Positions 16,458 to 52,285 of a DNA stretch of 64,000 bases are shown one piece after another. How positions within the stretch are numbered: the first letter of the stretch is position 1; every line of letters starts with the position of its first letter. Below the pieces are notes generated by a model that saw only the letters and a program-made list of their open reading frames with translations, made no database searches and had not been told where the DNA came from. Origin of the DNA: Nocardiopsis sp. YSL2 (GTDB lineage Bacteria; Actinomycetota; Actinomycetes; Streptosporangiales; Streptosporangiaceae); assembly GCF_030555055.1 (NCBI RefSeq), contig NZ_JAMOAO010000001.1:2790001-2854000 (forward strand), written 5' to 3'. The position numbers were made by a program, and so were the translations under genes.

Positions 16458-17183
16458 TCAGGCTCCGGGGATGCCGACGGCGCGCGCCGCCGCGCGTGCC
16501 ACGCGTTCCAGGTGCGCCTCGCGTGCGTCGATGATGTTGGCGTAGTGGCCGAAGAGCTCGAAGCCGACCGTTCCGAACAGTGTGGTCCACCCGTCGATGA
16601 CCCCGAGCGCCATCTCCGGCGGGGCACCGGTGAGCATCGCGGCCTGCTCGGGCTCCAGGTCGGCGGCGATGCGCTCGATACGCGCCACGATGTCGTCTCG
16701 CAGCTCCGGCGGCACCGGCGGCAGGTCCGCGGGGGCCAGGCCCGGCCCCTGGCGGGCATCGTGAGCGATGCGCGTGAGCAGCAGCACGACGCGGGTGGCC
16801 GGTTCGGTGGTGTCCCGCGGTGCCGCGTAACCCGGTACCGGTGAGCCGTAGATGAGGGCGTACTCGTGCGGATGGGCCAGCGCCCAGGCGCGTACCGCCC
16901 GGAAGACGGCGATCCAGCGCCCGGCGTGGTCGTCGCGGGCGACGGCGGACTCCGCCTTCTGCGCCGCGTCCCCCGCTCCTTCGTAGGCCGCGACGATGAG
17001 CGCCGTCAGCAGCGCGTCCCGGTTCGGGAAGTACCGGTAGACCGCCGACGCGGCCATGCCGAGTTCGCGCGTGACGGCGCGTACCGACAGGCCCGCCGCG
17101 CCGCGCTCGGCGAGATGGCGGCGCGCGACCTCGGTGATCTCGGCGACGTACTCGGCGCGAACGCGGTCTCGGATGCCAACCAT
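16458..17183 (-). CDS. TetR-family regulator with WHG-type C-terminal domain
   Basis: 241 residues. The N-terminal helix-turn-helix reads GAAGLSVRAVTRELGMAASAVYRYFPNRDALLTALIV. The C-terminal part (PHEYALIYGSPVPGY) matches a ligand-binding domain common in actinobacterial TetR proteins. I chose the ATG at 17181-17183; the in-frame start 23 codons upstream would overlap the operator area. It is divergent from an SDR gene, and repeated GATCAGTG/GATCACTG-like boxes lie between them, so it probably represses both. Confidence 0.87.
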   Translation of the reverse strand: MVGIRDRVRAEYVAEITEVARRHLAERGAAGLSVRAVTRELGMAASAVYRYFPNRDALLTALIVAAYEGAGDAAQKAESAVARDDHAGRWIAVFRAVRAWALAHPHEYALIYGSPVPGYAAPRDTTEPATRVVLLLTRIAHDARQGPGLAPADLPPVPPELRDDIVARIERIAADLEPEQAAMLTGAPPEMALGVIDGWTTLFGTVGFELFGHYANIIDAREAHLERVARAAARAVGIPGA

Positions 17184-17202
17184 GCGGCGAGTCTGCCACG
17201 AA

Positions 17203-17286
17203 AGATCAGTGATGTGAAGTGTGAACAGTGATCTTGACTGGAGGGTCTTCATCGTGGAACGCTGATCTTGTGCGAGATCACTGTTC
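17203..17286. promoter_or_regulatory. operator boxes between the TetR and SDR genes
   Basis: Four related boxes occur in 84 bases: AAGATCAGTG (about 17202-17211), GAACAGTGATCT (17223-17234), GCTGATCTT (17261-17269) and AGATCACTGTTC (17275-17286). The second and fourth are exact reverse complements; the first pairs with the second with one mismatch over ten bases. The arrangement suggests two TetR operator sites, one over each promoter. Confidence 0.6.
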
Positions 17287-17311
17287 TCGCCAATGTCGAG
17301 AAGGGTCCACC

Positions 17312-18289
17312 ATGTCTTTCCACGTCATCGTCGGTGCGGGTGCGCTCGGCACCTCCCTGGCCCTGCAGCTCGCGGAGAGGGGTACCGAGGTCCGGATCAT
17401 CACCCGCTCCGGAGGCGGCCCCGAGCACCCGTCGGTCGAGCGGGTGCGGGCCGACGCCACCGACGCGGCCGAGCTCATCCGGCTCACGCGCGGCGCCGCC
17501 GTCCTCTACAACTGCGCCAACCCGCCCTCCTACGAGATGTGGGAACGGCTCTGGCCCCCGCTGGCCGCCTCCCTGCTGGAGGCCGCCGAGCGGACCGGGG
17601 CGGTCCTGGCCATCGGCGGCAACCTCTACGGCTACGGCCCGGTCCAGGGGCCGATCCACCGCGACCTGCCCCTGGCCGCCACCGACCACAAGGGGCGGTT
17701 GCGCGCGCGGATGTGGGCGGACGCGCTGGCCCGGCACGAGGCGGGCGCGGTCCGGGTGACGGAGGTGCGCGCCTCGGACTACATGGGTGCCATGAACCCG
17801 ATGAACAGCTACCCCGAGTTCTACGCCGACCAGGCGCGTACCCGGCGGCGCGTGTTCACCTTCGCCGACCCCGACCAGGTGCACAGCGTCACCTACGTCC
17901 CGGACGTCGCCCGCACGCTGGCCGCTGTGGCCACCGACGAGCGGGCGTGGGGGCTGGGCTGGCACGTGCCCTCGCCCAGGGCTCGCACGGTGCGGGAGAC
18001 GGTCGCCGACCTGGCGCGGGAGTTCGGTGCGGACCACCCCTCCGTGTCGAAGATCCCGCGGCCGCTGCTCAGGGCGGCCTTCCCGTTCTCACCGTTCCTC
18101 CGGGAGGTGGGGGAGCTGCTCTACCAGTGGGACGCTCCCTACGTCATCGACGCCGACGTGACCACCGAGACCTTCGGGATCGAGGCGACCCCGTGGGAGG
18201 AGGTCGTGCGCGCGACGGCCGCGGGGCTCACCTCGCGTGCCCGTGCCGCCCGCTCCGGCGGCGTCGGCACCTCGGCCCGTTCGTCGTGA
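17312..18289 (+). CDS. NAD(P)-binding epimerase/dehydratase-like protein
   Basis: 325 residues. The N-terminus FHVIVGAGALGTSLALQLAERG is an NAD(P)-binding Rossmann loop (G-x-G-x2-G). TRSGGG, ADATDAAEL and YNCANPP follow, with the conserved IGGNLYGYGPV and VTYVPDVARTLAAV typical of extended SDR proteins. The usual Tyr-x3-Lys is not obvious, so it may be an atypical member. GAAGGG precedes the ATG. Its divergent TetR neighbour suggests induction by a small molecule. Confidence 0.8.
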   Translation: MSFHVIVGAGALGTSLALQLAERGTEVRIITRSGGGPEHPSVERVRADATDAAELIRLTRGAAVLYNCANPPSYEMWERLWPPLAASLLEAAERTGAVLAIGGNLYGYGPVQGPIHRDLPLAATDHKGRLRARMWADALARHEAGAVRVTEVRASDYMGAMNPMNSYPEFYADQARTRRRVFTFADPDQVHSVTYVPDVARTLAAVATDERAWGLGWHVPSPRARTVRETVADLAREFGADHPSVSKIPRPLLRAAFPFSPFLREVGELLYQWDAPYVIDADVTTETFGIEATPWEEVVRATAAGLTSRARAARSGGVGTSARSS

Positions 18290-18472
18290 CGGCGCTCCCG
18301 GGGCGGGCCGTGGAGGGATCGAGGAAGAACTGGCGCGGGGCCGACGGGCGCCGGTCCGGGTCCCGCGGGGCGTCCGAGGGCAGGTGTTCGATCCCCCGGC
18401 CACGGCCGCGTGACCTCGGGGAAGTCCCCGGCATGGTCCTAGAATCGGTTGCTGAGGGGGAGGTGGACGACC

Positions 18473-18931
18473 ATGGTGCAGGAGTCTGACCCGCGAGACA
18501 CGGAGGCCGTCGCCTGCGCGGCGATCGAGGAGTTCCTCGTGGGCCGTCTGGAGAAGACGCTGAGCGTGTACCGCAGAGCGCGACAGGCGGACGGGGCCGC
18601 GCGGGGCGCGGGGGAGGCCATGGCGGAACTGCACGCCGAAGACCTGACCGCGTGGCAGGAGCACGGATACCTCAGTCACGCGAACGCCGCCACCGTCGTC
18701 GGCGAGTTCTATGAACGGCGCATCGCCAAGGCTGCCCGCGCGCTGCGGCAGGCACCGAGGAACACCGGTCGTCGGGAGCGTTGCCGGGCCCGGTACCACT
18801 CGCTGCGGCACGAGAGGGCGGCCGTCGAGACCTGGTTGGTCGCCCAGGGGTGGGACCTGGAACTCCGGGCCGCCGACCACGGGACCGAGCGGGGCGTGGC
18901 CGGCCACCGCTGGACGTCCGCCCGCCGCTGA
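18473..18931 (+). CDS. hypothetical protein
   Basis: 152 residues from the ATG at 18473, which has GGGGGAGG upstream; an in-frame GTG eight codons earlier is less well placed. The protein is Arg/Ala/Glu-rich and looks all-helical, with no signal or membrane segment. I do not recognise a family. The 183 bases before it hold no gene. Confidence 0.5.
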   Translation: MVQESDPRDTEAVACAAIEEFLVGRLEKTLSVYRRARQADGAARGAGEAMAELHAEDLTAWQEHGYLSHANAATVVGEFYERRIAKAARALRQAPRNTGRRERCRARYHSLRHERAAVETWLVAQGWDLELRAADHGTERGVAGHRWTSARR

Positions 18932-18963
18932 GAACGCGCCAGCGTAGTGCGGATACAGAGATA

Positions 18964-18976
18964 CTCGATTTTCGAG
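18964..18976. promoter_or_regulatory. short palindrome upstream of tspO
   Basis: CTCGA-TTT-TCGAG lies in an A/T-rich patch about 95 bases before the tspO start, a plausible promoter or operator position. The arms are only 5 bp, so chance is possible. Confidence 0.35.
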
Positions 18977-19071
18977 ATTATTTCCGCGGCCACGTGGAAT
19001 GACGCTGTGTGAGGCGCCGGTGTCCCGATCCCGGGGCGCCGGCGTACGGCGATCTCGAGAGGAGGGCAGGC

Positions 19072-19581
19072 GTGACGATCGCACCGCGAGAACGGCGGCA
19101 CGGCGGCGCCACCGCCCTGGCGGGCCTGGTGGTGTTCGTGTCGGCGGTGGCGGCCACCGCCCTGGCGGGCGTACTCCTGAGTCCTGACACCGCCCAGGAG
19201 TACGCGCGGCTCGACCAGCCGGACTGGGCGCCCCCGTCCTGGCTGTTCGGCCCCGTGTGGACGACCCTCTACGCCATGATCGCCCTGGCGGGCTGGCTGG
19301 TGTGGCGGCGCTTCGGCTGGAGGGAGGCGCGCCCGGCGCTCTCGCTGTTCGCACTGCAGCTACTGCTCAACGCCGCGTGGAGCCCTCTGTTCTTCACCCT
19401 GGGGCTGCGCGGCATCGCCTTCGCCGACATCGTCGTGCTCTGGGTGGTCCTGTCCGCGACGATCGCCCTCTTCGCGAGGCTCTCGCGACCGGCGGCCTGG
19501 CTCCTGGTCCCCTACTGGGCGTGGACGACCTTCGCCGCACTGCTGAGCTTCACGATGTGGCGGCTCAACCTCGGGGCGTAG
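19072..19581 (+). CDS. TspO/MBR family membrane protein
   Basis: 169 residues from a GTG with GAGAGGAGGG upstream. Five membrane spans are visible. TspO signatures are present: DWAPPSWLFGPVWTTLYAMI (WAPP and GPVW-x3-Y-x2-M), LQLLLNAAWSPLFF, and PYWAWTTFAALLSFTMWRLN. Family members bind porphyrins and act in tetrapyrrole or stress responses. It is the last ordinary gene before the tRNA remnant and the NRPS cluster. Confidence 0.93.
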   Translation: MTIAPRERRHGGATALAGLVVFVSAVAATALAGVLLSPDTAQEYARLDQPDWAPPSWLFGPVWTTLYAMIALAGWLVWRRFGWREARPALSLFALQLLLNAAWSPLFFTLGLRGIAFADIVVLWVVLSATIALFARLSRPAAWLLVPYWAWTTFAALLSFTMWRLNLGA

Positions 19582-19611
19582 GCCGGGTGCCGTGCGGATG
19601 CCTCCGGACAC

Positions 19612-19655
19612 GAAAAAAGACCTGGGGAGTTCCGCGATGCGGAAAGCCCCAGGTC
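19612..19655 (-). terminator. classical intrinsic terminator, leftward
   Basis: GACCTGGGG (19619-19627) and CCCCAGGTC (19647-19655) pair perfectly, with a further inner stem TTCCGC/GCGGAA. On the minus strand the hairpin is followed by six T residues (AAAAAA at 19613-19618 on the given strand). It follows the tRNA-like remnant and is of the type found after tRNA genes. Confidence 0.85.
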
Positions 19656-19660
19656 GAAGC

Positions 19661-19710
19661 GCGGAGGATATGGGATTTGAACCCGGGGGTTCGCTCCCCC
19701 ACCCGCATGA
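19661..19710 (-). pseudogene. decayed 3' end of a tRNA-Ser-like gene (possible attachment-site remnant)
   Basis: Read leftward, the sequence has a variable-arm-like hairpin (GGGGG-AGCGAA-CCCCC), then GGGTTCAAATCCC, which is a T-arm with only three paired bases, and ATATCCTCCGC, matching the usual 3' acceptor end of actinobacterial class II tRNA-Ser genes. No intact D-arm or complementary 5' acceptor GGAGGAT is found upstream within the expected 90 bases. A T-run terminator follows directly. I therefore read it as a 3' fragment, as left when an element integrates into a tRNA gene. A strongly degenerate whole tRNA is the alternative. Confidence 0.55.
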
Positions 19711-19886
19711 TCAGAGCGAAGACCAGGGTTATATCGTTCCGTGTGGTATCGCGCTATGACGTTTCCTATGGTCAGGGCCTAGCGTCCCTGATGTTGTGTG
19801 GCGCCTCCTGCCGGCGCGTGCCATCTGGTCGGCATTTTCCTTATGAGAACGTCCCGGGGGCCTGGGCCGCGCGGCCCAGGCCCCCA

Positions 19887-20705
19887 TCATCTCAGGAAGC
19901 CCTCGTCCCCATCAGTAGCCCCTCTGGCCTGTGGCGTCGCCACGGCGGTATGGCACCGACCCTCGTTCTCCGGCGAAAGTCTCGCCGCGATCGAGGCAGC
20001 TCCGAGAATCTGGATGTCCTTCATCAACCAGGGGGACAGTCCGGTCAGTTCGTGGATCCTGCGCAGGCGATAGTCCAGCGTATTGGGGTGGATGTGGAGT
20101 TGTCGTGCGACGTTGGCACGCTCCCTGCCGTGCTCCAGATATGACAGGAGCGTTTCCATCAACGGGGCGCCCGCGAGCGTGAGCGGCACGAGTCGGCCCG
20201 CGAGTAGTTCGGCGAGGTCCGGTGAACGCATGAGAGCGATTTCTATCGGTATGTCTTCGGTTCGGTAGACACCCGGTGAGTACCCCAGCCGTTCCACCAC
20301 ACGTATGACCATTTCAAGGTCGTCCACGGTGGTGCCGATCCGGTTGTGCCCGGTTGCGGATCCGAAGGCGGCGCAGCGTCGTTCACCGGTCGCCTCGATC
20401 CAGGCGGAAGCTTGCGCGATCAGGCTCTCCAACGCCTCGGGGTGGGCGCTTTCCGTGACAGGGATCAGAGTGACCGAGTAGCCGCCGTGGACGAATGACC
20501 GGGAGGTGCCCCAGTGTTCGACGGGGGCGAGGGGCTGTGTGATCGGGAAGCCGAGACCACCCAACGGGTTCAGCTCCGAGGGGTCCGGCTTCATCATGAT
20601 AACCAAGTGATAGTCGGCATCCTGCGCGGGGTATCCGCGGGTACCGAGAACGGATGGCCAGGTTAGGCCAACATGTGATCTTGGGAGGAAGTCTTGCCGC
20701 TGCAA
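19887..20705 (-). CDS. PucR/CdaR-type regulator lacking the N-terminal sensor domain
   Basis: 272 residues from a TTG; the start is uncertain, and MMKPDPSEL near 20597 is a possible later start. The C-terminal helix-turn-helix ERANVARQLHIHPNTLDYRLRRIHELTGLSP is the HTH_30 domain of PucR/CdaR proteins, preceded by a GGDEF-like middle domain (about 60-180). Family members usually run 380-550 residues with an N-terminal sensing domain, which is missing here, and no start codon occurs further upstream in the open frame. It borders the NRPS operon and is read in the same direction, so it is the best candidate for a pathway activator. Confidence 0.78.
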   Translation of the reverse strand: MQRQDFLPRSHVGLTWPSVLGTRGYPAQDADYHLVIMMKPDPSELNPLGGLGFPITQPLAPVEHWGTSRSFVHGGYSVTLIPVTESAHPEALESLIAQASAWIEATGERRCAAFGSATGHNRIGTTVDDLEMVIRVVERLGYSPGVYRTEDIPIEIALMRSPDLAELLAGRLVPLTLAGAPLMETLLSYLEHGRERANVARQLHIHPNTLDYRLRRIHELTGLSPWLMKDIQILGAASIAARLSPENEGRCHTAVATPQARGATDGDEGFLR

Positions 20706-20822
20706 AGAAGAGCCCTTTCCCTGGTAAGGGGCGCGGACGGTGCGCGATGGGATCCCAGGCTGGGAGTATTCCGTTGGAGGGTGCTCAGAGGCAGTCCTCG
20801 ACCGTAGCGATAGTACACACTG

Positions 20823-23800
20823 TTATGGTTTGGTTTCCATGGGTGGTGATCCCTCGTTCACCAGGATCCGCTCGATCATGAGCGCCTGCTCGGCCAGGGT
20901 CGGATTGTTGAAGATGTCGGCCACCTTCACTGGGGAATCGGTCCAACGGCTGACCAGCCCGGCCAACACGATCGCGTGCAGGGAGTTTCCCCCGAGGTCG
21001 AAGAAGTCGTCGGACACGTCGCTCGGCAGCTCGCCGAGGCGCTGTTCCCACAGCGTGGCTAGTTCGGTTTCGAGCAGGCCCGAAGGCGGGCGCAGACGAG
21101 GCCGTGTGGTGATCAGACCCGTCTCCAGGCGGGGAAGGGCAGCAGCGTCGATCTTTCCGGAGGGAAGGCGGGGCCAGCCGGTGACGGGTACCAGGGCCTC
21201 CGGGATCGACGCCGGGAGGAGTCTGTCCAGGAGGAAGCGGCGTAGTTCCGCGGCAGACGGTGGCGTCGCGGAGTTCAGGAGCAGGTAACCGGCGAGGACC
21301 GGCTTCCCGTGGTCGCGCTCGCGTTGCACCACGAGCGCTTCGTCGATCTGGGGGTGGCAGGTGAGTGCGGCCTCGACCTCAGCTGGTTCGATGCGGACGC
21401 CGCGCACCTTGATCTGCCGGTCGGCTCTGCCGAGGAGTTCGAGTGAGCCGTCCCTGCTCCGCACGGCGAGATCGCCCGTGCGGTAGACGCGGAGCCCGGG
21501 CGTGCCTGGTGCCGGGGCGAACCGCAACGCTGTCATCGCTGCGTCTGCCTGGTAGCCCTGGGCCAAGCAGGCGCCGCCGATGGCCAGCTCGCCCACGGTG
21601 CCGTCCGGCACGGTGCCGCCGTCCTCATGGAGCACGTGTACGGTCACACCGGACAGGGGCGTACCCACCGGCACGCGGCCTGTTTCGCGGCCGGTCACCA
21701 GGTGAGTGGTGGCATCCGCGCAGACTTCCGTCGAACCGTAGATGTTGCGGATGCGGGCGTTCGGCAGCTGGTCGTGTAGGGCGTGAGCGAGGGAGGCGCG
21801 CAAGGGCTCGCCGCTCAGATGCCACGTGCGCAGGTTCGGCAGCACCGCGGCGAGGTCGGTGCCCGTGCGGAGGATTTCCGCCAGGAGGGTCGGAACCAGC
21901 GTCAATTTCGTGACGTTGCTGCGCGACAGGACGGCGATGAGGTCTTCGGGCGCCTGGACGCGCTCGGGGACGATCACGGTGGGGACGCCCCTGAGCAGGC
22001 CGTCGAACAGTTCGGCGATGGAGTCCACGAAGCCGATCGGTGTGCGCATCGCGAAGACCTCGTCAGGGCCTGCGGGCTCCTCGCGGGTGGACCAGTCGAG
22101 GCGGTTCATGATCGCCGTGTGCGGCAACGCCACTGCTTTGGGCTGTCCAGTGCTTCCGGAGGTGAAGACGACGGCGGCGGTGCGCCCGGGGTCGGGGGAG
22201 ACCGCGGGTACCCAGCCCGGCGCGGGCGGTGAGCTGACGTCCAGCGCGACCGTCCCTGAGGGCACGGGGAGTCGGGCGGTGTTTCCCAGAGCCACGGGCC
22301 CGGCCGCGGCGCTGAGCAGGGTGCGCAGGCGTTCCCGTGGTTGGGAAGGGTCCATGGGAGCGTAGGACGCCCCCAGCCTCAGGACGGCGAGAACGGCGGC
22401 TGCGTAGGCGGGTGTCCGTTCCAGGCACACGGGTACGACCGTGCCTTCTGACACTCCGTGCGCAGCCAGGTGCGCGGACAGGCGCGCGACGTCCTCGGCG
22501 AGATCGGCGTAGCGGACCGCCTCGCCCTCCCAGCGCAGCGCTTCCGCGCGGGGCGTGTGCTGTGCTTGGCGCGTGAACCGGTCGAACAGGTCGGATTCCT
22601 CGTCGATCAGGTCGTGTGAGGTGTCCTGGACGCGGGGTGTCTCGGCTGCGCGCAGCCGGTCCAGTGGGGAGGCCGGAGCGTGGGGGGAAGAGGCCATATG
22701 GCGTAGGGCTTCTTCGTAGTACCCGGCGATGCCGTCCATGTGCGCGTCGCTCAGACCCGCGTCGGAGAACTCCAGGAACAACCCCACCCCGCCGCTGAGT
22801 ACGTCGCGTCGGAACTGCGCGGTGAGACGGTGGTAGGTCTGGTCGGTGGCGCGCAAGGAGAGCAACTGTGGACCGCTGTCGTGTGTGCGGTGTTCGTAGG
22901 GCCGGAAGTGGGTGTAGTTGAACGTGGTGTCGAAGGGGGTGTCGATCCGGGCATCCTGCAGCATCTGGGCGTAGGGGTAGCCGCGGTGGGTGAGGGCGCC
23001 GGCCTCGGCGGCGTGGACTCTGCGGATGTCGTCGACCGTGGACCCGGTTCCCACGTTGACCCGGATCGGTGTGGTGTTCAGGAACATGCCGACCGCAGCG
23101 GCGCCGTGGGCGTTCTCCGGACGACTGTTGGCCATCAGGCCGGTCAGGACGTCACGTCGGCCGGTCAGCAACGACACGACCTGGACATGCGCGGCCATGA
23201 GGACGGACTTGAGCGGGACCGCCAGGGACTCGGCCAGTGCTTGGAGCCCGTCGGAGGTCTCTGCCGTGACCCGCACAGGGCGTACTTCGTACCCGGAGGA
23301 GGAGCGTCCGGGCAGGCCGGCGGGGGGCGGGTCGGAGAGGACACCGAGCCAGTAGTCCCGGGCCCCGGGGTCCTTGCAGGCGGCGGACTCCAGGAGCAGG
23401 AAATCGGTCTGGGCGCGTACGGGCTCTGGCTGGGGGAGGGGCCCCATGGCCAGTTCCCGGTAGTTGTCGAGCAGTTCGTTGACCGCCAGGGCGACGCTCC
23501 AGCCGTCGAGGAAGGGCTCGGTCAGGGTGAGCTGGAACTCGTCATCGGACATCAGGTGGGCGGTGAGCACCAGCAGAGGGGGACACTGCCAGTCGAAGGA
23601 GCGGTCGCGCTCGACGGTGAACCACTGGTCGAACGCGGTGCGTTGGTGTGACGGGTCCAGTTCCCGCAGGTCGACAACGGTGAGAGCGTCCGGTATGTGC
23701 GTGTGGACCAACTGGAGGGGCTCGTCGAAGGACGTGACGTCGATCGAGCTGCGCAGGAAGGGGTGGCGGTCTACCAGCGCTTTGAGGGCCGCTCTCATGC

Positions 23801-26800
23801 GCGACGCGTCGAACTCTCCCCGGAGCCGCAAGGAGGTGGTGTAGACCCGGTAGTCGGGGTTGGCCGTGGACTCGTAGTAGAGCCCAGCGAGCAGCCGGGA
23901 GAGGGGGAAGGCATCCTCCACTCCTGCAGGGAGGCGTGTGCGGACGGAGGGGGGGACCAGGGCGAAGGGCGCTGTGTCGGTCGGCACCTGGGATGTGTCG
24001 ATGTCGTCGGCCACGGCTGCCATGGCCGTGAGCACGGGGTTCTGGAAGACCTTTTCCACGGTGAGTTCGAGACCGGCCGCGCGCGCGGCGGAAACGAGGT
24101 CGATGCTGAGGATCGAGTCGCCGCCCAGGAGGAAGAAGTCGTCGCGCGGGCTGCGCGGGGGCACGCCCAGCGTCCGCTCCCACAGCTGGGCGAGCAGTGT
24201 CTCGCGGTCGGTCCATGCCTGGTCGCCCTCGTCCTCGTCGGGACCACGAGGACTGTCGGGTTGGGGCAGCGCTGAACGGTCGACCTTCCCGGAGGGCAGA
24301 AGCGGAAAGTGCGGCAGCACCGTCCACTGCGTGGGGACCATGTACTCGGGCAGCCACTGAGCGAGTGCGTCCCGGGTCGTCTGAACCACGTGCGGGTCCT
24401 CTTGTGAGCAGGTCAGGTAGGCGACCAGCACGGGTTTTCCGGACGGGCCCGTCCAGAGTGCAGCGACGGCTTGGCGGACTCCGGGGACCCGCTCGATCGC
24501 ACTCTCCACCTCGCTCAGTTCGATCCGGAAGCCGCGGAGCTTGACCTGGCCGTCATTGCGCCCGAGGAACTCGATGGATCCGTCGGTGAGCCGTCGGCCC
24601 AGGTCGCCCGTGCGGTACAACCGTGCGCCGGGCTCTCCGAGGGGAGAAGGGACGAACCTGTCGGCGGTGAGTTCGGGTCGCCCTACGTAACCTCGGGCGA
24701 GCCCGATGCCGCCAATGTGGAGTTCACCGATCACGCCCGGGGGGAGGAGTTCCCCGCGTGGTCCCAGTACGTGCACCGAGACACCGCTGATGGGACGTCC
24801 GATGGGGACGGTGTCCCCATCGGAGGAGGGGTCCACGCACTCATGGGCGGTGACGTCGATGGCTGCTTCGGTGGGCCCGTACAGGTTGTGCAGGCGGGCA
24901 TCGCACAGGCGCGTGAAGTCCTCACGCAGCCCTGCGGTGAGTGCCTCTCCACTGCACACGACGTGTCTGACCCCGGTGAGGGAGCGTGCCTGGTCGGCTG
25001 TCAGGAAGGCGCGCAGCATCGAGGGGACGAAGTGGAGGACGGTGACGCCCTCCTGCTGGATGATCCTGCCGAGGTATGCGGGGTCGCGGTGTCCACCGGG
25101 CGCTGCGACCGCCAGTGTCGCGCCGACAGTGAGCGGCCACAGCAGCTCCCAGACCGACACGTCGAAGCTGAGCGGGGTCTTCTGGAGCACGGTATCGGTC
25201 GCGTCGAGGGGGTAGGCCCGCTGCATCCAGGCCAGCCGGTTGTTCAGCGCTTCATGGGTGTTCATCACTCCCTTGGGCCGCCCAGTCGACCCCGATGTGA
25301 AGATCACGTAGGCGAGTGAGGCCTGGGGCGGGGCGGGCAGGTCATCGGTGCCCGCCGTCGAGGCCGCGGTGAGTTCGGCGAGAGGGATGGGTACGGGGCC
25401 GGGCGGAGGGGTCACCTGTGCGGTGTCGACAACGACGGCGACCGGGCGAGCGTCCTCGACCATTGCCTGGAGCCGGGCGGAGGGCAGGGAGGGATCCAGG
25501 GGCAGGTAGGCGCCGCCTGAACGAAGAATGGCCAGCACCGCGATGATGAGATCGGGCGAGCGGTCGGCGTGAACGCCGACGATGTCGTCGGTCCCCACAC
25601 CCAGGGCACGTAGTCGATGGGCTGCGGCGCGGACGCGAGCGTCGAGTTCGGCGTAGGTCAGTGACACCTGCGCCATGCGAACGGCGACGCGGCCGGGGTG
25701 GCGGTGGGCGATGGCGGCGACCGACTCGGCCACGCCCGTGGTGACCTTCTCGGGGACGGCGCCTGTGCCCAGGGACAGGGCCTGGGCTGCCTCGTCCTCG
25801 GGCATCAGGGCGAGGCGGGAGATGGGCTGGTCCGGGGCGGTGAGCATCTGGCGCAGCAGATGTTCCAAGTGCCGAAGGATCCGCCGTGCCGTGTCCTCTT
25901 CGAACAGGTCCCGTTGGGCCCAGAGCATGATCGCCATCTCGTCGCCGTCGGGGCGCAGGTACAGCTCCAAGTCGAAGCGGGCCGCGCCCGTGTCGACGAT
26001 GAACAGCTCTGCTCGGATCCCCGCGGCCTCGGGCAGCGGCTGGGCCTTGCCGTTGTAGCCGATGAGTACTTGGAAGAGGGGGTGGTGGGCGGTGGTGCGG
26101 GTGAGCCCCAGGGACTGGACCAGCTTGTCGAAGCGAAGCCGGTGGTGCCCGGTCCCGGTGAGGATCTCCTTGCGTACTCGGGCCAGCAGGTCGAGCACGG
26201 TCGGGTCGTCCCCCGACTGGACGCGTTGCAGGAGGGTGCTGATGTGCGGTCCCACGACATCCGCTTGCTCTGGACGCAACCGGCCGGCGAAGGGGTAGCC
26301 GACTGTGATGTCGTCCTGTCCGGAATAGCGGGCCAGCAGGATGTGCAGCGCCGCACTGAAGAGCATGAAGGGGGTGATGTGCCGGCTGCGGGCGAACGCT
26401 TCGAGCCGCGCGGTCAGTTCGGCGCGCAGGCGGTGCTCGACCGGGCGGCCCTGGAAGGTCGGCGCGCTCGGCCTGGGGTGGTCCGTCGGCAGGGCCAGGA
26501 GCGCGGGCGCGTCCGCCATCCGCTTCTGCCAGTAGGCGTGGTGGCGGGCCGTCTGGGTGGCGGCCTGCTCGCCGAACTGGTCGGCGATGAAAGCGCGGTA
26601 GTCCGATCGGGGCGCTGGTGGGTAGTCCGTCGCACTCTCCCGGACCCGTGCGTAGACGTTCAGCAGGGTCCGGTTGATGACGGGAAGGGACAGGCCGTCC
26701 GTCACCAGGTGGTGCATCGGCATGAGCAGGACGTGGTCGTCAGGTGCCAGACGCATCAATGTGGGGCGGAAGAGGGGGTCGTGTGCGAGGTCGAACGGTT

Positions 26801-27326
26801 CGGCCATCACCTCCCGGGCACAGCTGAGCCCTGTGGATTCGCGTTGCGCGGAAGGCACCCCCGTCAGATCGATCACCGGTAGTTCCGGAGCCGACGCGGG
26901 GGCGATGCGTTGTACGACCTGTGTGCCCACGGTCAGGACGGAGGCGCGCAGCATGGGATGGTGGGCGACGAGGTGTTCCAGCGCCGTCCGCAGGGCCGCG
27001 GTGTCGAGGGGGCCGCGCAGTCGCAGCGCGTGGGGTACGGTCGAGACCGCCTGGGCGCCCTCCTGGTGGGAGGCGAAGTACATGCGCTGTTGCGTCCAGG
27101 ACAGGGGGAGAACCGTACTGCCCGCAGGAACGGTGGCCTGGGCCCGGCGCAGTACCCGCAGTAGTTGGGCGTCGAGCGAGGTGGAGCGTTCGGGCAGCAG
27201 CGCGTGGTCCACACCCTCGGGTACGTCGACGTGGAGCGTCCCGTCGCGGTCGGACAACTGCACGCCCGACTCGCAGTAGCGGGCCAGCGCGGTGAGCGCG
27301 GGGGCGCCCTCTTCGGAGTGGGTCAT
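20823..27326 (-). CDS. two-module NRPS: docking-C-A(Ser)-PCP-C*-A(beta-Ala-like)-PCP
   Basis: 2167 residues. An N-terminal TubC-like docking domain (about 10-60) precedes C1 (70-490; HHLVTDG near 204), A1 (500-1010; FTSGSTGRPKG near 675, FDVSVWE near 724), PCP1 (LGGDSI near 1070), C2 (1130-1560), A2 (1590-2060; FVDSIAE near 1766) and PCP2 (LGGNSL near 2112). No thioesterase, epimerase or reductase domain follows. Reading the specificity positions by alignment to GrsA gives DVWHVSLIDK for A1, close to known serine codes, and VDATHSIADK for A2, where Val replaces Asp235 and Asp stands at 236, as in beta-alanine codes. C2 has TEPFLDG where HHxxxDG is expected. The start overlaps the mbtH stop by four bases. 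Confidence 0.92.
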   Translation of the reverse strand: MTHSEEGAPALTALARYCESGVQLSDRDGTLHVDVPEGVDHALLPERSTSLDAQLLRVLRRAQATVPAGSTVLPLSWTQQRMYFASHQEGAQAVSTVPHALRLRGPLDTAALRTALEHLVAHHPMLRASVLTVGTQVVQRIAPASAPELPVIDLTGVPSAQRESTGLSCAREVMAEPFDLAHDPLFRPTLMRLAPDDHVLLMPMHHLVTDGLSLPVINRTLLNVYARVRESATDYPPAPRSDYRAFIADQFGEQAATQTARHHAYWQKRMADAPALLALPTDHPRPSAPTFQGRPVEHRLRAELTARLEAFARSRHITPFMLFSAALHILLARYSGQDDITVGYPFAGRLRPEQADVVGPHISTLLQRVQSGDDPTVLDLLARVRKEILTGTGHHRLRFDKLVQSLGLTRTTAHHPLFQVLIGYNGKAQPLPEAAGIRAELFIVDTGAARFDLELYLRPDGDEMAIMLWAQRDLFEEDTARRILRHLEHLLRQMLTAPDQPISRLALMPEDEAAQALSLGTGAVPEKVTTGVAESVAAIAHRHPGRVAVRMAQVSLTYAELDARVRAAAHRLRALGVGTDDIVGVHADRSPDLIIAVLAILRSGGAYLPLDPSLPSARLQAMVEDARPVAVVVDTAQVTPPPGPVPIPLAELTAASTAGTDDLPAPPQASLAYVIFTSGSTGRPKGVMNTHEALNNRLAWMQRAYPLDATDTVLQKTPLSFDVSVWELLWPLTVGATLAVAAPGGHRDPAYLGRIIQQEGVTVLHFVPSMLRAFLTADQARSLTGVRHVVCSGEALTAGLREDFTRLCDARLHNLYGPTEAAIDVTAHECVDPSSDGDTVPIGRPISGVSVHVLGPRGELLPPGVIGELHIGGIGLARGYVGRPELTADRFVPSPLGEPGARLYRTGDLGRRLTDGSIEFLGRNDGQVKLRGFRIELSEVESAIERVPGVRQAVAALWTGPSGKPVLVAYLTCSQEDPHVVQTTRDALAQWLPEYMVPTQWTVLPHFPLLPSGKVDRSALPQPDSPRGPDEDEGDQAWTDRETLLAQLWERTLGVPPRSPRDDFFLLGGDSILSIDLVSAARAAGLELTVEKVFQNPVLTAMAAVADDIDTSQVPTDTAPFALVPPSVRTRLPAGVEDAFPLSRLLAGLYYESTANPDYRVYTTSLRLRGEFDASRMRAALKALVDRHPFLRSSIDVTSFDEPLQLVHTHIPDALTVVDLRELDPSHQRTAFDQWFTVERDRSFDWQCPPLLVLTAHLMSDDEFQLTLTEPFLDGWSVALAVNELLDNYRELAMGPLPQPEPVRAQTDFLLLESAACKDPGARDYWLGVLSDPPPAGLPGRSSSGYEVRPVRVTAETSDGLQALAESLAVPLKSVLMAAHVQVVSLLTGRRDVLTGLMANSRPENAHGAAAVGMFLNTTPIRVNVGTGSTVDDIRRVHAAEAGALTHRGYPYAQMLQDARIDTPFDTTFNYTHFRPYEHRTHDSGPQLLSLRATDQTYHRLTAQFRRDVLSGGVGLFLEFSDAGLSDAHMDGIAGYYEEALRHMASSPHAPASPLDRLRAAETPRVQDTSHDLIDEESDLFDRFTRQAQHTPRAEALRWEGEAVRYADLAEDVARLSAHLAAHGVSEGTVVPVCLERTPAYAAAVLAVLRLGASYAPMDPSQPRERLRTLLSAAAGPVALGNTARLPVPSGTVALDVSSPPAPGWVPAVSPDPGRTAAVVFTSGSTGQPKAVALPHTAIMNRLDWSTREEPAGPDEVFAMRTPIGFVDSIAELFDGLLRGVPTVIVPERVQAPEDLIAVLSRSNVTKLTLVPTLLAEILRTGTDLAAVLPNLRTWHLSGEPLRASLAHALHDQLPNARIRNIYGSTEVCADATTHLVTGRETGRVPVGTPLSGVTVHVLHEDGGTVPDGTVGELAIGGACLAQGYQADAAMTALRFAPAPGTPGLRVYRTGDLAVRSRDGSLELLGRADRQIKVRGVRIEPAEVEAALTCHPQIDEALVVQRERDHGKPVLAGYLLLNSATPPSAAELRRFLLDRLLPASIPEALVPVTGWPRLPSGKIDAAALPRLETGLITTRPRLRPPSGLLETELATLWEQRLGELPSDVSDDFFDLGGNSLHAIVLAGLVSRWTDSPVKVADIFNNPTLAEQALMIERILVNEGSPPMETKP

Positions 27327-27535
27327 GTCGGGCCCTTCGCGCTCAGGCGTTCACGGAGTGACCGCGGTCTTTGGTCCGTCCAGTTCACGGCGATCCAGTC
27401 CAGACACTGGCGCCGGCTTCCGCTCACCCCCACAGGGCGCCAGCCCGGGGGGCAGGCGGCCCCGACGGGCCACAGCGAGTACTGCTCCTCGTCGTTGACC
27501 ACCACGGTGTGTGCGTCGTTCGGGTCCTGCTCCAT
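27323..27535 (-). CDS. MbtH-like NRPS chaperone
   Basis: 70 residues with the full family signature: VVVNDEEQYSLWP, PPGWRPVG, CLDWIAVNWTDQRP and SLRERL. MbtH proteins bind and activate adenylation domains. AAGGGAG sets the ATG. The stop overlaps the NRPS-1 start (ATGA), giving coupled translation; it may also serve NRPS-2, since no second mbtH is present. Confidence 0.96.
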   Translation of the reverse strand: MEQDPNDAHTVVVNDEEQYSLWPVGAACPPGWRPVGVSGSRRQCLDWIAVNWTDQRPRSLRERLSAKGPT

Positions 27536-27568
27536 GTGAGCACTCCCTTTCTCGTCATCCTGGGTGGG

Positions 27569-28870
27569 TCAGGGAGCCGGGGTGGTTCCAGGCAGGTGTT
27601 CGGGGACAGTGATCGTCGGCAGATCCTCGATGTCGCGTGTGCGGCGGAGGCCGGAGAAGAGCACGGGCAGGGCGAACACGCACATGAGGATGGTCGCGAT
27701 GAGGATGGCGCCTCGTGTGCCCAACGGCACCCCCAGCCAGCCGCCGACGAGTGCACCCGCGGCAGAGGCCGCGCCGATACAGAAGCGGATGCTGGCCGTG
27801 ATGGCCCCGAGTTTGTCGAGCGGGCAGGCTGCCTGCCGGTAGGAGTACTGCGAGATGTCGAAGAGGACGAACCTGATCGACGTCAGGAGCAGGTAGCCGA
27901 TGGCGAATACCAGGGGCAGAGCCGGGGCCAGAAGCAGGAGCAGGCCCGCCGGACTGAGGAAGACGGCCAGCCACATGATCCGTGCACTTCCCACGCGCCG
28001 CATGATGGAAGAGGCGAGCATTGCCGCGAGCAGGCCGCCGCTTTCCCCGACGAAGAAGACGGCGGCCACGGACACGGGGGAGAGCCCGAGGTCGACTACC
28101 AATAGGTAGAGGAATACCGCATTCACCATGCTGAGGCAGAACATCGAACCGACGGTGGTCAGGGCTGTTCGCGCCAGCGGTGGATTGGCGCCGAGAAGAA
28201 CGAATCCCTCGCGTACCGAATTCCACCACTGGCCGCGGCCGCGCGGCGCGGTTGTGGAAGCGTCGCCAGCCGCCCTGCCCCGGGGTGCATCCTTGGGTAG
28301 GAAAGCCACCGCCACGGCGCTCAGGAGAGAGAGCACGGCGTCGACGAGCAGTGTGGGAGGGCCGCCGATGCGGCCGTTGAGCATGGAGCCCGCGCTGGGT
28401 CCGCCGACGCGGGCGATCGACTCGGTGACCTCGATCCTGGCGTTGGCCTCGGGGAGGTGGTCGCGGGTCACCAACGCCGGTATGTAGGCGTGGTAGGCGA
28501 TGCCGAAGATGATGACCATGGCCCCGATGAGGAACGCCGCAGCGTAGAGCCAGAGCATCGACAGCAGTCCCATGAGCGCCAGGACGGGGATCGACAGGAG
28601 GACGAGGGCTCGCACGACGTTGCACGCGATCATCAGCCTGCGTTTGCTCACACGGTCGATGTAGAGCCCAGCGGGGACTGCCACGAGGAGCACGGCGATG
28701 GACGCCATGGCCTTGAGTGCACCTACCTCCGCGGTGTTGGCGTCCAGCACGGTGATGGCCACAAGCGGTAGGACGATCGTGGTGATCGCTATTCCCATTT
28801 CGCTTGCCGACTGCCCGAGCCAAAGGGTGAGAAAAGAGCGATCACGCCAGAGTGATCCCTGCTCAGACAT
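27569..28870 (-). CDS. MFS efflux transporter, EntS-like
   Basis: 433 residues, about 12 membrane spans. The start FLTLWLGQSASEMGIAITTIVLPL and the loop AGLYIDRVSKRRLMIACNVVRA (the G-x3-D-R-x-x-(K/R)-R motif between helices 2 and 3) fit the MFS_3 group that exports siderophores and peptides. It lies first in the leftward NRPS-1 operon, 33 bases before mbtH, and probably exports the product and gives self-protection. AAGGAAGG lies upstream of the ATG. Confidence 0.88.
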   Translation of the reverse strand: MSEQGSLWRDRSFLTLWLGQSASEMGIAITTIVLPLVAITVLDANTAEVGALKAMASIAVLLVAVPAGLYIDRVSKRRLMIACNVVRALVLLSIPVLALMGLLSMLWLYAAAFLIGAMVIIFGIAYHAYIPALVTRDHLPEANARIEVTESIARVGGPSAGSMLNGRIGGPPTLLVDAVLSLLSAVAVAFLPKDAPRGRAAGDASTTAPRGRGQWWNSVREGFVLLGANPPLARTALTTVGSMFCLSMVNAVFLYLLVVDLGLSPVSVAAVFFVGESGGLLAAMLASSIMRRVGSARIMWLAVFLSPAGLLLLLAPALPLVFAIGYLLLTSIRFVLFDISQYSYRQAACPLDKLGAITASIRFCIGAASAAGALVGGWLGVPLGTRGAILIATILMCVFALPVLFSGLRRTRDIEDLPTITVPEHLPGTTPAP

Positions 28871-28943
28871 GTTCTTTATTCGCCTTCCTTCGGGTCTCTC
28901 CGGGTCGCCGACGACATTCTAGTTCCAGTGCGATCGGATGTCT

Positions 28944-28996
28944 TTGTGATGCTTCACAAGCATCGCATGTGTGTCGTCCTTGGTGAAATCTCACAA
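28944..28996. promoter_or_regulatory. paired operator-like sites in the divergent NRPS promoter
   Basis: The 290-base gap between the two diverging NRPS operons holds TTGTGA-TGCT-TCACAA at 28944-28959 and TGGTGA-AATC-TCACAA at 28981-28996, centres 37 bases apart. The first overlaps a second palindrome, GATGCTT-CAC-AAGCATC (28948-28964). A further half-site TTGTGA lies at 29035-29040. The spacing of four differs from the CRP consensus (six). A pathway regulator could control both operons here. No other gene lies in the gap. Confidence 0.65.
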
Positions 28997-29160
28997 CGGG
29001 GAAGGTCATTTCCCCAGGAGGTGTCGTGCGCGGTTTGTGAGAAACACGGTCTCGTTTGCCGACCCTTTCCCCGGTGCTGGACGGCAAGGCACTCTCATCA
29101 CGGGGGCGACCACGTTGATGCCGTCCGCCGTCGTAACACCGAGCATGGCGAGGAGCGCGA

Positions 29161-32100
29161 ATGTCGTTCGATCCGCGTACCGGAACGAACCCGGAGGATC
29201 CGCGCCGGCGCGAACAGGCCGAACGCCTTCTACGTGCCCGTATGGGCCGGGCTGGTGCGCCGACTCCTCCCGCCGGCGCCGAAGGGGGGTACGACGGCCT
29301 GTCCTTCGGTCAGGAACGCATGTGGTTCCTGCACGTGATGGACCCTGACAGCTCGGCCTACAACATCACCAACGTTGTGCGGCTGGTCGGCAGGATCGAC
29401 ACGGACGCGCTCGTGGGTGCCTGCGGCGATCTGGTGGAGCGCCACCCCGAGCTGGGGGTCTCCTATCACGCGGCCGAAGACGGGTCGCCCCGACGCAGGA
29501 GGCCGTCGGGGCCGGTACCCGCACCAGTGACAGTGCTCTCGCGCGGTCCCGACGACGCATCGCTGGTGCGTGAGTTCCTGCACCGTCCGTTCGATCTGGC
29601 CGACCCTCCCCTCATCCGGTTCCTGCTGATCACCGGCGGCCCCTCTTCGGAGGAGGGCGAGCACACTCTGGCAATGGCGGTCCACCACATCGCCGCCGAC
29701 GGGTGGTCTCTCGGCATCGTGAACCGGGATCTTCGTGACCTGTACCTGGCCCGCGTGGGCCACGGCGCCGCCCCCGCGCCGCCCGCCCACGACTTCGTCG
29801 ACTTCGCGGCGCGCGAACGCACCTGGATGGCGGGGCCCGAAGGTGCCTCGGGGCGGGCCGCGTGGCGCCGGGCGCTGGAGGGCATGGCGGCGATCGAGCT
29901 GCCCATGTCGCGTACCAGGCCTCCGGTGCCCACCTTCCACGGGGGAAGATGCGAGCACCGCCTACCGTTGGAGACCGTCGAACGGCTGGAAGAGCTGGGC
30001 CGCCGTCACGGTGCTTCGCTCTACATGATTCTGGGCGCGGCGTTCTCCTGCCTGCTGCACCGGTACTCGGGCCAGACCGACATCGTGTTCGGGTCGCCCG
30101 TGGCCAACCGTGAAGACGCCGCGTTCTCCGACGTCGTGGGCCTGTTCGTCAACAGTGTCGTGCTGCGGACCGACCTGTCGGGCGGGCCGTCCTTCACCGA
30201 CGCGCTCCGCCGGTTCAGGTCCACATCCTTGGAGGCCCTGCAGCACCAGCGCGTTCCCTTCGAGACGGTCGTGGACGATCTCAGTCCAGAGCGCACCCTG
30301 AGCCACAACCCGCTCTTCCAGGTCATGTTCGCCCTCCAGAACGCTGACACCGGTTCCCTGGAGGTTCCAGGAACCCGGTCCGAGCCGGTCGGATTCGACG
30401 CCGACGTGTGCCGCTTCGACCTGGAGTGGACGCTGTGGCGCGACGCCGACGGCGCCCGCCTGCGCATCAAGTACTCCGACGCCCTCTTCGACCAGGCCGT
30501 CGTGGACCGGCTCGGAGCCGAATACGCGCGTTTGTTGGAACTGGCCTGTGACCAGCCCGACCGTCCGATCGGGGAACTGGCGGTCTTCGCGGCGGGCCCC
30601 GGGCGTTCGAGCGGGCCGGCTCCAGCCCTGCCCGTGGGGGTGCGCGGTTGGCACGAGTTGTTCACGCGCGCCGCCCGGGAACGGCCGGACGCCGTCGCTG
30701 TCGCCGACGCCACCACCGACCTGACCTTCCACGCCCTGGAACGTCGTGCGGGGCACCTGGCGCGACGCCTGCACGAGGCGGGGGTGCGCCCCGGGCAGGT
30801 GGTGGGTGTTCGTACCGGCCGCACCGTGGACATGGCCGCGGCCACACTCGGCGTCGCCATGGCCGGGGCCGTGTTCCTGCCGTTGAACCCGGACGACCCC
30901 CCGGCACGGCGGGCCTTCCTGCTGCGGGACGCCGGTGCCCGAGCCCTGCTCACCGACGCTTCCGAGACGGGCGAGGGGGAGGTGCCGGTCATCGACGTCG
31001 CCGACCGGGAGGCAGAGGCCGAAGGAGCTCCCGCACCACCGGTGAAGGTGGCGGCCGAGGACGCGGCCTACGTCATCTACACCTCGGGGACCACAGGCTC
31101 ACCCAAGGGCGTGGTCGTGGAACACCGCAACATCATCAACACGCTGCTCTCCTGCGGACGGCTGTTCGACTTCGACGAGAACGACGTCAGCCTGGTGACG
31201 GCGGCCGGCACCTTCGACGTCTTCTACTACGAGTTGTTCGCCGTGATGCTCGCAGGTGGGCGGGCGAGGATCGTCACACGCGCCGAGCTGTTCTCCCCGC
31301 CCGCCATGGTCGCGCTCCTGGGCAGTGCCACCGCCATCCAGGCCGTGCCGGGTCTGATGGAACACCTCCTCACCGCCATGTCCGAGGAGGGGACATCGAC
31401 CATCGATTCCCTGCAGACCGTCCTGACAGGGGGCGACACCGTCCCCGCATCCCTGCTTGACCGTCTCTGCCGGGCCTTCCCCCGCGCCCGGGTCGCCGTC
31501 GCCTACGGGCCGACCGAGACGGCGATCTTCGCGACCATCCACCCCGTCACCCGTGGCGAACCGGTCAGGGGCAACCCGATCGGAACCGCGCTGCCCGGCG
31601 TGGAAGTCCTCATCGCCGACGAGTACGGCAACGAACTCCCCCCGGGGGTCACCGGCGAGATCATGATCGGTGGCGCCGGGGTGGCGCGCGGCTATCTCCA
31701 GCGCCCCGAAGAGACCAGCGGCCGCTTCGTCACGCACCGCGGTCGACGCTACTACCGCAGCGGTGACCTCGGCTCACGCCGCGTCGGTGACGAGGTGCTG
31801 CAGTTTCACGGCCGCAACGACACGCAGGTCAAGGTGCGGGGGTTCCGCATCGAGCTGGGCGAGGTCGAAGCCGCGCTCTCGGGCCTGGACGGAGTACGCC
31901 AGGCCGCCGTGGCCGCAGTCGGAGAGGACCTGGGCGCCCAGCGTCTGGTGGCCTGTGTGGTGCCGGCCCCCGAGGCGCTGGAGCGGGCTCGGGGCGACAA
32001 GGACAGCGCGGAGGCCGTGGACGAGTGGCGCGCCCTGTTCGACGACACCCATACCGAGGGTTCGGCCGAGGACCGGGACTTCACGGGCTGGAACTCCAGC

Positions 32101-34851: not shown

Positions 34852-34868
34852 CTCCCGAGGAGTGACCG

Positions 34869-35873
34869 ATGCACTTCAGCCTCTTCTACTTCGCCGAGGA
34901 CGCGGGACACAGCACAGGGAACCGCTACCGTCTGCTACTCGACGGGGCTCGTTACGCGGACCGCAGTGGATTCTCCGCCGTTTGGATCCCCGAACGGCAC
35001 TTCCACCCCGTCGGGGGTATCTACCCCAACCCGGCCGTTGTCGGAGCGGCCGTGGCGGCCGTCACCGAACGCGTGGGCATTCGTGCCGGAAGCGTCGTCG
35101 CCCCTCTCCACCACCCGCTGAGGATCGCGGAGGAGTGGTCGGTGGTGGACAACCTGTCCCGTGGTCGGATCGGGCTCTCTCTGGCTTCGGGATGGAACCA
35201 GCGCGACTTCGTTCTGAACCCCACCGGCTTCGAGACACGGAAGGAGGACACGCTCTCCTCAGTCGATGTCCTGCGTGCGTTGTGGCTCGGTGAGAGCTGG
35301 AACGAGGACGGCTCCCCCCACGTCGGTGTGTTTCCACGCCCTGTGGGTCCGCTTCGGCTGTGGCTCAGCGCCGCCGGCGGCGTGGAAACGTTCCGCGCGG
35401 CCGGGCGGGCCGGCACCGGTGTGCTCACTCACCTGGTCAAGCAGGACATGGACGAGCTGGCACAGAAGATCCTGGAGTACCGCAAGGCGTATGCCGCCTC
35501 AGGAGCGCCGGGGCAGGGACACGTCACGCTGATGCTGCACACCTTCGTCGACCCCGACCAGCGGCGCGCCGTCGACACTGCTCGCGCCCCGCTTGAGAAC
35601 TACCTGGTGGGGGCTCTGACGCCCACACGTAGGGCCGTCGATGACCAGACCCGCGCCAAAGCCCTGGCCGCGGTGCGCCCCGCCGCCGACCGCTACCTGT
35701 TCTCCGACGGGCTGATCGGTGGACCCGAGCACGGGGCCCTGGTCGTCGACCGCTGCCGACAGAGCGGTGTCGACGAGATCGCCTGCCTGATCGACTTCGG
35801 CGTGGACCCCGACACGGTTCTGGCGGGGCTGGAACACCTGAACGAGCTGCGTGCGGCCCACACCGATGACTGA
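34869..35873 (+). CDS. luciferase-like flavin-dependent monooxygenase (LLM class)
   Basis: 334 residues. The start MHFSLFYFAED and FSAVWIPERHFHPVGGIYPNPAVVGAA, RVGIRAGSVVAPLHHPLRIAEEWSVVDNLSRGRIGL and ASGWNQRDF match the natural-product luciferase-like subfamily that often appears inside or beside NRPS and PKS modules. It needs reduced FMN, which the FMN reductase at the end of the operon could supply. A hydroxylation (C- or N-) of a carrier-bound substrate is the likely job. GAGGAG sets the start, 17 bases after NRPS-2. Confidence 0.9.
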   Translation: MHFSLFYFAEDAGHSTGNRYRLLLDGARYADRSGFSAVWIPERHFHPVGGIYPNPAVVGAAVAAVTERVGIRAGSVVAPLHHPLRIAEEWSVVDNLSRGRIGLSLASGWNQRDFVLNPTGFETRKEDTLSSVDVLRALWLGESWNEDGSPHVGVFPRPVGPLRLWLSAAGGVETFRAAGRAGTGVLTHLVKQDMDELAQKILEYRKAYAASGAPGQGHVTLMLHTFVDPDQRRAVDTARAPLENYLVGALTPTRRAVDDQTRAKALAAVRPAADRYLFSDGLIGGPEHGALVVDRCRQSGVDEIACLIDFGVDPDTVLAGLEHLNELRAAHTDD

Positions 35874-35918
35874 GTACCCCCACTGCCGCAGCGCGGCTCT
35901 GACCTGAGGACGAGGACA

Positions 35919-36158
35919 TTGACTACTGAGCAATTGGAAGAGCTGATTCTGGCGACGTTCCGTGATGTCCTGCGCAATCCGGAACTGGGGACTGACGACG
36001 ACTTCTTCTCCGTGGGTGGTGACTCGTTGCTGGCCGTGGAGGTGTCATACACCATCTCCGAGAAGCTCGGGCAGGAGGTGGACCCGTTGATCGTTTATGT
36101 CAATCCCACTGCGAGCAGTTGCGCGAAAGCCATCACCGAACTCAATGCCAGCACGTGA
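35919..36158 (+). CDS. free-standing peptidyl/acyl carrier protein
   Basis: 79 residues from a TTG preceded by GAGGAC. DDFFSVGGDSLLAVEVSYTI carries the phosphopantetheine site Ser36 (GGDSL), typical of PCPs. No adenylation enzyme for it is nearby, so an NRPS A domain in trans or another enzyme must load it. It lies 36 bases before the LanB-like gene, which suggests a shared step. Confidence 0.9.
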   Translation: MTTEQLEELILATFRDVLRNPELGTDDDFFSVGGDSLLAVEVSYTISEKLGQEVDPLIVYVNPTASSCAKAITELNAST

Positions 36159-36194
36159 GCGGGCGTGGCTGTGCGGGGTGGGGAAGGGAGTCGC

Positions 36195-39835: not shown

Positions 39836-39885
39836 CGGTGGGCATCCCCCGTCCCCATCCCACCCGAACCACGAGAGGCGAAGAC

Positions 39886-43324: not shown

Positions 43325-43351
43325 AGCCGCACCATCCCAGAAGAGGACCCC

Positions 43352-43801: not shown

Positions 43802-43811
43802 GGACAACACC

Positions 43812-45420: not shown

Positions 45421-45458
45421 TGGATACTCCCTTGTCTTGCGAGGCCGTAACGGATTCA

Positions 45459-47027: not shown

Positions 47028-47028
47028 G

Positions 47029-49168: not shown

Positions 49169-49199
49169 CGTGTCTCCCGTCGTCGGTCGAGAGGCGGAG

Positions 49200-52283: not shown

Positions 52284-52285
52284 GG

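Follow-up and report, generated by a model that had tools for sequence, protein, structure and literature searches.

A decayed tRNA-Ser(GCU) fragment at the border of a 55-kb natural-product island in Nocardiopsis sp. YSL2

Why does the 3' end of a serine tRNA lie by itself, terminator included, next to a biosynthetic gene cluster? The question is raised by a 64,000-nucleotide stretch of Nocardiopsis sp. YSL2 (here, the window; contig NZ_JAMOAO010000001.1, G000:C1:2790001-2854000, where G000 denotes the 6.42-Mb source genome), in which a tRNA-Ser-like 3' fragment separates tspO from a nonribosomal peptide synthetase (NRPS) cluster. An initial annotation, made from the sequence alone, took such duplicated 3' ends to mark the far end of elements integrated at tRNA genes. 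Comparison with other genomes of the genus leads to the same answer: the fragment is very probably the far attachment site left when a 55-kb island entered the tRNA-Ser(GCU) gene by site-specific integration. Its best reading is as an attachment site that has decayed, at an integration hotspot found across the genus.

The fragment, its intact counterpart and the borders of the island

The minus strand was found to carry a hairpin, a T-run and the 3' end of a class II tRNA (acceptor strand ATCCTCC, TTCAAAT loop, variable-arm hairpin) at 19612-19710, where the initial annotation had placed them, between the end of the TspO gene at 19581 and the start of the NRPS cluster at 19887. The claim that the fragment has no 5' half was borne out only in part. 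ARAGORN found no tRNA in the window and Rfam none at the fragment, even at E<=10 for 19500-19900, and a complete functional tRNA at 19.6 kb was rejected on these grounds. Decayed homology to tRNA-Ser(GCU) nevertheless extends past the variable arm, through the anticodon arm, to about 19718.

An intact tRNA-Ser with the same 3' end, which the initial annotation had proposed to look for, is present in the genome. The second copy of the fragment (G000:C1:2864771-2864881; 89% identical over 111 bp, E=1.9e-33) has the same orientation and overlaps a tRNA-Ser gene with a GCT anticodon at G000:C1:2864822-2864909 (ARAGORN, locus L002; window-equivalent 74822-74909). With this E value the match to the tRNA-Ser(GCU) locus is not due to chance, and chance similarity was rejected. 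The two copies lie 55.2 kb apart, the second of them 10.8 kb past the window end, and the intact tRNA carries a terminator of its own. The other two serine tRNAs matching in this genome have the anticodons GGA and CGA.

Decay of the fragment is uneven: it is intact from the T-loop onward, and its anticodon and variable arms are decayed. Compared with the intact copy, 28 of 40 columns are identical up to the T-arm (a count that includes gap columns and a few end columns), versus 67 of 70 from the T-arm through the terminator. For trimmed segments of the two copies, with 22/30 and 65/68 identical columns, Fisher's test gave p=0.003. The terminator stem differs from that of the intact copy by one substitution, and the predicted folding energies are -28.5 kcal/mol for the fragment and -32.4 kcal/mol for the intact copy. 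The unevenness could be explained by selection on the terminator, by later gene conversion or by a crossover nearer the T-arm.

At each edge, the 55-kb block between the copies carries the tRNA 3' end as a direct repeat, and at one edge the tRNA gene is intact; the block extends past the window end to window-equivalent 74770. The G+C content is 0.678 for the DNA enclosed by the copies, 0.720 for the flank left of it and 0.732 for the flank beyond the tRNA on the right; the difference between island and flanks is significant (Mann-Whitney p=4.6e-11, 1-kb windows), with a step visible at ~19.7 kb.

The initial annotation had also pointed to an empty site in related strains, and one was found in a close relative, G060. 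There, genes from the left of the island and genes from its right (sigma factor, 345-aa protein) flank one tRNA-Ser, in the order M3 peptidase, TetR, epimerase, helix-turn-helix (HTH) protein, major facilitator superfamily (MFS) protein, tRNA-Ser and sigma factor, over ~9 kb. Both copies in the source genome align to this single tRNA-Ser. Direct repeats and joined flanks together uphold the reading of the duplicated 3' end as the far end of a tRNA-integrated element. Gene calls in this and all other relatives come from our open reading frame (ORF) filter rather than from annotation.

The left-hand genes recur elsewhere. In G031 the order is MFS protein, 160-aa protein, TspO, a degenerate fragment, ~50 kb of DNA and tRNA-Ser; in G010 it is 160-aa protein, TspO, a 491-aa ORF and tRNA-Ser, with the first two genes within 3 kb of the tRNA. 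No tRNA genes turned up in a set of 30 short loci that surround TspO matches (29 in other genomes).

Two relatives show arrangements of another kind. On the 5' side of the G010 tRNA-Ser, before the sigma factor, lie 37 kb with an EryCIII-type glycosyltransferase gene (G010:C1:2745010-2782190, L096-L098); integration at the tRNA 3' end does not account for this block. In G001 (G001:C1:7020539-7034404, L132) the orientation of tRNA-Ser relative to the sigma factor is opposite to that in the other genomes, with ~13 kb between them, which suggests an inversion.

Integrases and element ends at tRNA-Ser(GCU) across the genus

The tRNA 3' end is present at least twice (E<=1e-8) in 10 of 40 genus genomes, the source genome included, and one genome had none. 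Hotspot regions were fetched from 23 of the 39 other genomes; these 23 were picked after the match results and are not a random sample, and the sequence covered on the downstream side of the tRNA is shorter than 5 kb for G006, G010, G012, G017, G022, G024 and G029. A tyrosine integrase or its remnant lay within 1.6 kb downstream of tRNA-Ser in 12 of these 23 relatives. In G015, G036, G018 and G024 the integrase is almost complete in length and has no stop. IntA of G020, also near full length, has one in-frame stop and was not counted as intact. Broken or partial genes were found in G007, G002, G004, G012, G022, G025 and G006 (in G006 where a contig ends), with only C-terminal pieces kept in G004, G012 and G025. 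In the records of N. salina (NZ_ANBF01000177.1, corresponding to G036) and N. quinghaiensis (NZ_VWVU01000006.1, corresponding to G020), tRNA-Ser(GCT) lies ~0.7 kb from IntA.

In G020, G036 and the second element of G015, a second integrase (IntB), 47-50% identical to the first (IntA), is placed divergently (head to head) ~300 bp away, and in G036 both frames are open; in the first element of G015 it survives as a remnant of 84 residues. Outside the genus, an integrase relative lies 98 bp from tRNA-Ser(GCT) in G070. At E<=1e-100, integrase relatives were found in 2 of 150 family genomes, the second without a tRNA in the fetched stretch. Phages, plasmids and viral contigs yielded no close IntA relatives: all phage and plasmid records were <60% identical, and one viral contig matched at 29%. 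We found no report of a Nocardiopsis tRNA-Ser hotspot in the open-access literature.

The integrase is the only protein family widely common to the hotspot blocks, occurring in 6 of 13 intervals compared with at most 3 for any other family. The rest of the cargo varies and includes CRISPR-Cas genes in G015 (with homologues in G020), ketosynthase (KS) genes in G036 and, 3.8 kb from the tRNA, in G025, a hydantoinase-B gene in G031 and an amidohydrolase gene in G002. The CRISPR-Cas cargo of G015 (G015:C1:410562-417376, L109) comprises Cas_GSU0053, Cas_GSU0054 and a Cas3-like protein, whose homologues in the G020 element are 86-91% identical. In G015 (G015:C1:388906-447450) and G007 (G007:C1:5355159-5383822), a single intact tRNA is followed downstream by an array of several tRNA-Ser 3' fragments, suggesting repeated integration. 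In G007 the tails of the tRNA and of the first fragment are nearly identical for >100 bp past the terminator.

The element ends were compared in nine fragments, which come from seven relatives. Their identity to the tRNA starts at the anticodon loop (CTGCTAATGCGG; slightly changed in one copy) and continues through the 3' end and terminator in seven of the nine. Outside this start, an arm of ~130 nt could be aligned in all nine. Five copies have an extra hairpin after the tRNA end, namely, the G002 and G036 fragments, the G001 tRNA and the weak third fragments of G007 and G015. These alignments point to a crossover at the anticodon loop and to elements that would usually bring a replacement 3' half together with its terminator.

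Profiles of the tail and the arm were trained on 8 and 9 sequences, respectively, all from relatives, and were compared with mononucleotide shuffles. Next to the fragment in the window, the arm profile gave a weak match of 8.5 bits (E=0.023) at 19722-19776, restricted to the inner half of the arm; of 300 shuffles the best reached 2.7. In the source genome, the sequence following the intact tRNA matched the element-tail profile, again weakly, at 14.5 bits (best of 300 shuffles, 3.3). Both matches are where element ends would be expected. There was no tail match behind the fragment or in the tails of G060 and G010.

Integrases prefer particular places inside tRNA genes. For the YSL2 locus we infer where the crossover lay, which integrase made it and in what order parts were lost, as follows. 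A tyrosine integrase of the family found at tRNA-Ser in relatives would have recombined the DNAs at the anticodon loop or close to it. A new 3' half and terminator would have come with the inserted DNA, and the tRNA would therefore have stayed functional. The original 3' half and terminator of the chromosome would have been pushed 55 kb away, to their place beside tspO. The integrase may have been lost later or may have acted from a place beyond the borders of the island as it now stands, and disused sequence in the displaced copy would have decayed.

Competing explanations and known systems

Several observations weigh against an integrated island. No tyrosine integrase (PF00589) is encoded between the two copies, where the initial annotation had suggested one be sought, although 20 matches occur genome-wide. 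Serine recombinases (PF00239; a single match in the genome, far away) and FtsK/SpoIIIE proteins (PF01580; 17 matches in the genome) are likewise absent from the island. Eleven of the 23 relatives have no integrase at the site, with little downstream sequence covered for some. In G060, HTH and MFS genes take the place of the 160-aa protein and TspO on the left side. The arm match beside the fragment has E=0.8 when taken over all fetched regions, where it is the last match. Finally, the tail profile also matches G031 (95.8 bits), G062 (60.1), G005 (25.7), G061 (9.8) and G029 (6.9). No integrase was seen in the fetched DNA of these five genomes, although G031 does have a 50-kb block; thus, the tail profile is not exclusive to proven elements.

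Other searches for mobility genes agree with these absences. The eight hotspot integrases of relatives left no trace in the island by tblastn, and their sole match in the source genome (E=1.0) is outside the island, beside the tRNA. Pfam assigned none of 44 scanned island proteins to a mobility family, nor did it find a replication initiator among them, no search having been aimed at the latter. The 44 comprise all 42 filter ORFs and two more, with 62970-64508 scanned only to the window end. Decayed islands often lack an integrase, and its absence here counts against a mobile island, not against an island. Because neither an integrase nor an FtsK-type transfer gene was found in it, the island looks fixed and immobile.

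A quite different origin would be a tandem duplicate of the tRNA gene that decayed into a pseudogene, with no integration and with the clusters arriving separately by homologous recombination. The uneven identity of the two copies and the lack of an integrase would suit this explanation; the position of the repeats would not, since they bracket exactly the 55-kb low-G+C block. Moreover, similar 3' fragments in relatives border blocks of their own, several with integrases, the flanks are joined around one tRNA in G060, and no tRNA is recognised at the fragment. We consider a tandem duplicate highly improbable.

Site-specific integration might also have had a more complicated history. The NRPS and polyketide synthase (PKS) clusters could have entered as successive elements, the attachment site between them having been lost. 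Such a sequence of events would match the multifragment arrays of G015 and G007 and the separate occurrence of the clusters, one in G022 and the other in G035 and G011. Four profiles, however, detected no third tRNA-Ser fragment or element arm inside the island, and on balance we doubt this version. Alternatively, later homologous recombination at tRNA 3' ends may have swapped in the two clusters, leaving the fragment as a relic of an older element. An integrase that is gone while both ends persist would fit a swap, and recent exchange or conversion would leave the near identity seen from the T-arm to the terminator. There is no direct trace of a swap, and integrase decay without a known swap also occurred in G004, G012 and G025. 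We consider this version, too, rather unlikely.

Integration of an island at a tRNA gene is a known kind of event. Additional findings are the two-cluster cargo and conserved ends that mostly appear to bring a replacement tRNA half with its terminator. The part of PMC9897764 considered here treats tRNA gene fragments as partial, noncanonical genes resulting from integration of genetic elements, and its worked cases are archaeal. The present fragment resembles them as a partial tRNA gene from integration and differs from those cases in that it borders two natural-product clusters, has no integrase left and belongs to a duplicated stretch that includes the terminator. In Salinispora and other actinobacteria, genomic islands are rich in metabolite clusters, and an adjacent tRNA gene and a G+C difference serve as marks of horizontal transfer, according to the portion of PMC11195616 used here. 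Compared with the islands in that portion, ours is from Nocardiopsis, and an attachment-site-like repeat, together with a relative whose flanks are joined, maps both of its ends. Actinomycete integrative and conjugative elements (AICEs), as presented in the relevant part of PMC3218068, have tyrosine integrases at tRNA 3' ends, tandem integrations and repeats reaching beyond the tRNA end. In contrast to AICEs as presented there, no FtsK/SpoIIIE match (PF01580) was found in the island or in the corresponding intervals of seven relatives (G018, G007, G015, G002, G020, G036 and G031), and the island has no integrase. An AICE with its own transfer gene still present was rejected on the absence of this match.

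Tentatively, and with somewhat more doubt than conviction, we propose that tRNA-Ser(GCU) of Nocardiopsis serves as a docking site for elements without a transfer gene of their own. Such elements would have conserved ends, often a divergent integrase pair and, in most cases, a complete replacement tRNA 3' half with terminator. They would swap functional blocks (natural-product clusters, CRISPR-Cas, catabolism) between species and fossilise once the integrase is lost, as here. In practice, both borders of a natural-product island were placed within a short repeat, for which gene content alone is insufficient. Newly arrived clusters can be sought in any Nocardiopsis by scanning downstream of tRNA-Ser(GCU), with a displaced 3' fragment as the far border.

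Cargo of the island and coordinates of features

The NRPS cluster (~19.9-44.4 kb) encodes condensation, adenylation and carrier domains, MbtH, HPPD-type and FMN-dehydrogenase enzymes and aminotransferases. The segment 19887-43324 is colinear with G022:C141 at 54-80% protein identity. The type II PKS cluster, from 45.2 kb onward, encodes a KS, a chain length factor, an acyl carrier protein, a ketoreductase-type short-chain dehydrogenase/reductase, cyclases, a carboxylase and hydroxylases; 45196-59340 is colinear with G035:C14 at 64-93% and 45459-56972 with G011:C35 at 62-85%. Some island ORFs in these segments lack a counterpart. Of the 40 genus genomes, 2 encode the LanB-like protein of the NRPS cluster and 15 have KS relatives (E<=1e-120), the source genome included in both counts. 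The two clusters, which the rest of the genus carries separately, thus sit here inside one pair of borders and have one common entry point.

No tRNA was found in the stretches fetched around the G022, G035 and G011 clusters. These stretches also have no clear element end, with one weak tail match in G011 (9.6 bits, E=0.42). About 12.5 kb from the related PKS cluster, G035:C14 (~388170-388309, L188) has pieces of 26 and 15-19 residues resembling the C-terminal part of the hotspot integrases (best E=7.6e-7).

Table 1. Coordinates of features at the tRNA-Ser(GCU) island and of paired integrases in relatives (window positions unless a genome or locus is named)
Feature	Position	Strand	Basis or remark
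Displaced tRNA-Ser(GCU) 3' part and terminator, very probable far attachment site of the island	19608..19718	-	89% identity over 111 bp
Intrinsic terminator: hairpin 19619-19655, T-run 19613-19618	19613..19655	-	Sequence; fold
tRNA-Ser 3' portion, discriminator base back to anticodon arm	19662..19718	-	Alignment with 26 other copies
Putative decayed element-end arm, like the ~130-nt arm of nine fragments in relatives	19722..19776	-	Profile match, weak
Host left flank: TetR 16458-17252 (-), epimerase-like 17228-18289 (+)	within 16458..19581		Both by tRNA-Ser in G060
Host left flank: 160-aa protein 18449-18931 (+), TspO 19009-19581 (+; PF03073)	within 16458..19581		
Island cargo 1: NRPS cluster, hydroxyphenylglycine-type genes, MbtH, free-standing peptidyl carrier protein, LanB-like protein	19887..44378		Pfam
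Island cargo 2: type II PKS cluster	45196..64000, island going on to equivalent 74770		Pfam
Paired integrases	L117 2827-5852 (G036); G020:C6:245581-248578; G015:C1:422453-425450		

Island ORFs without a Pfam match lie at 44874-45164, 50721-52358 and window-equivalent 64658-66169; the latter two are probably not genes. Within the NRPS cluster, at 35919-38531, a free-standing carrier protein of 79 aa (PF00550) is immediately followed by a 788-aa protein that matches the LanB N-terminal family (PF04738) and had no NCBIfam match. The pair is kept in G022 at 75-80% identity, and the LanB-like protein is possibly a tRNA-dependent enzyme acting on the carrier protein.
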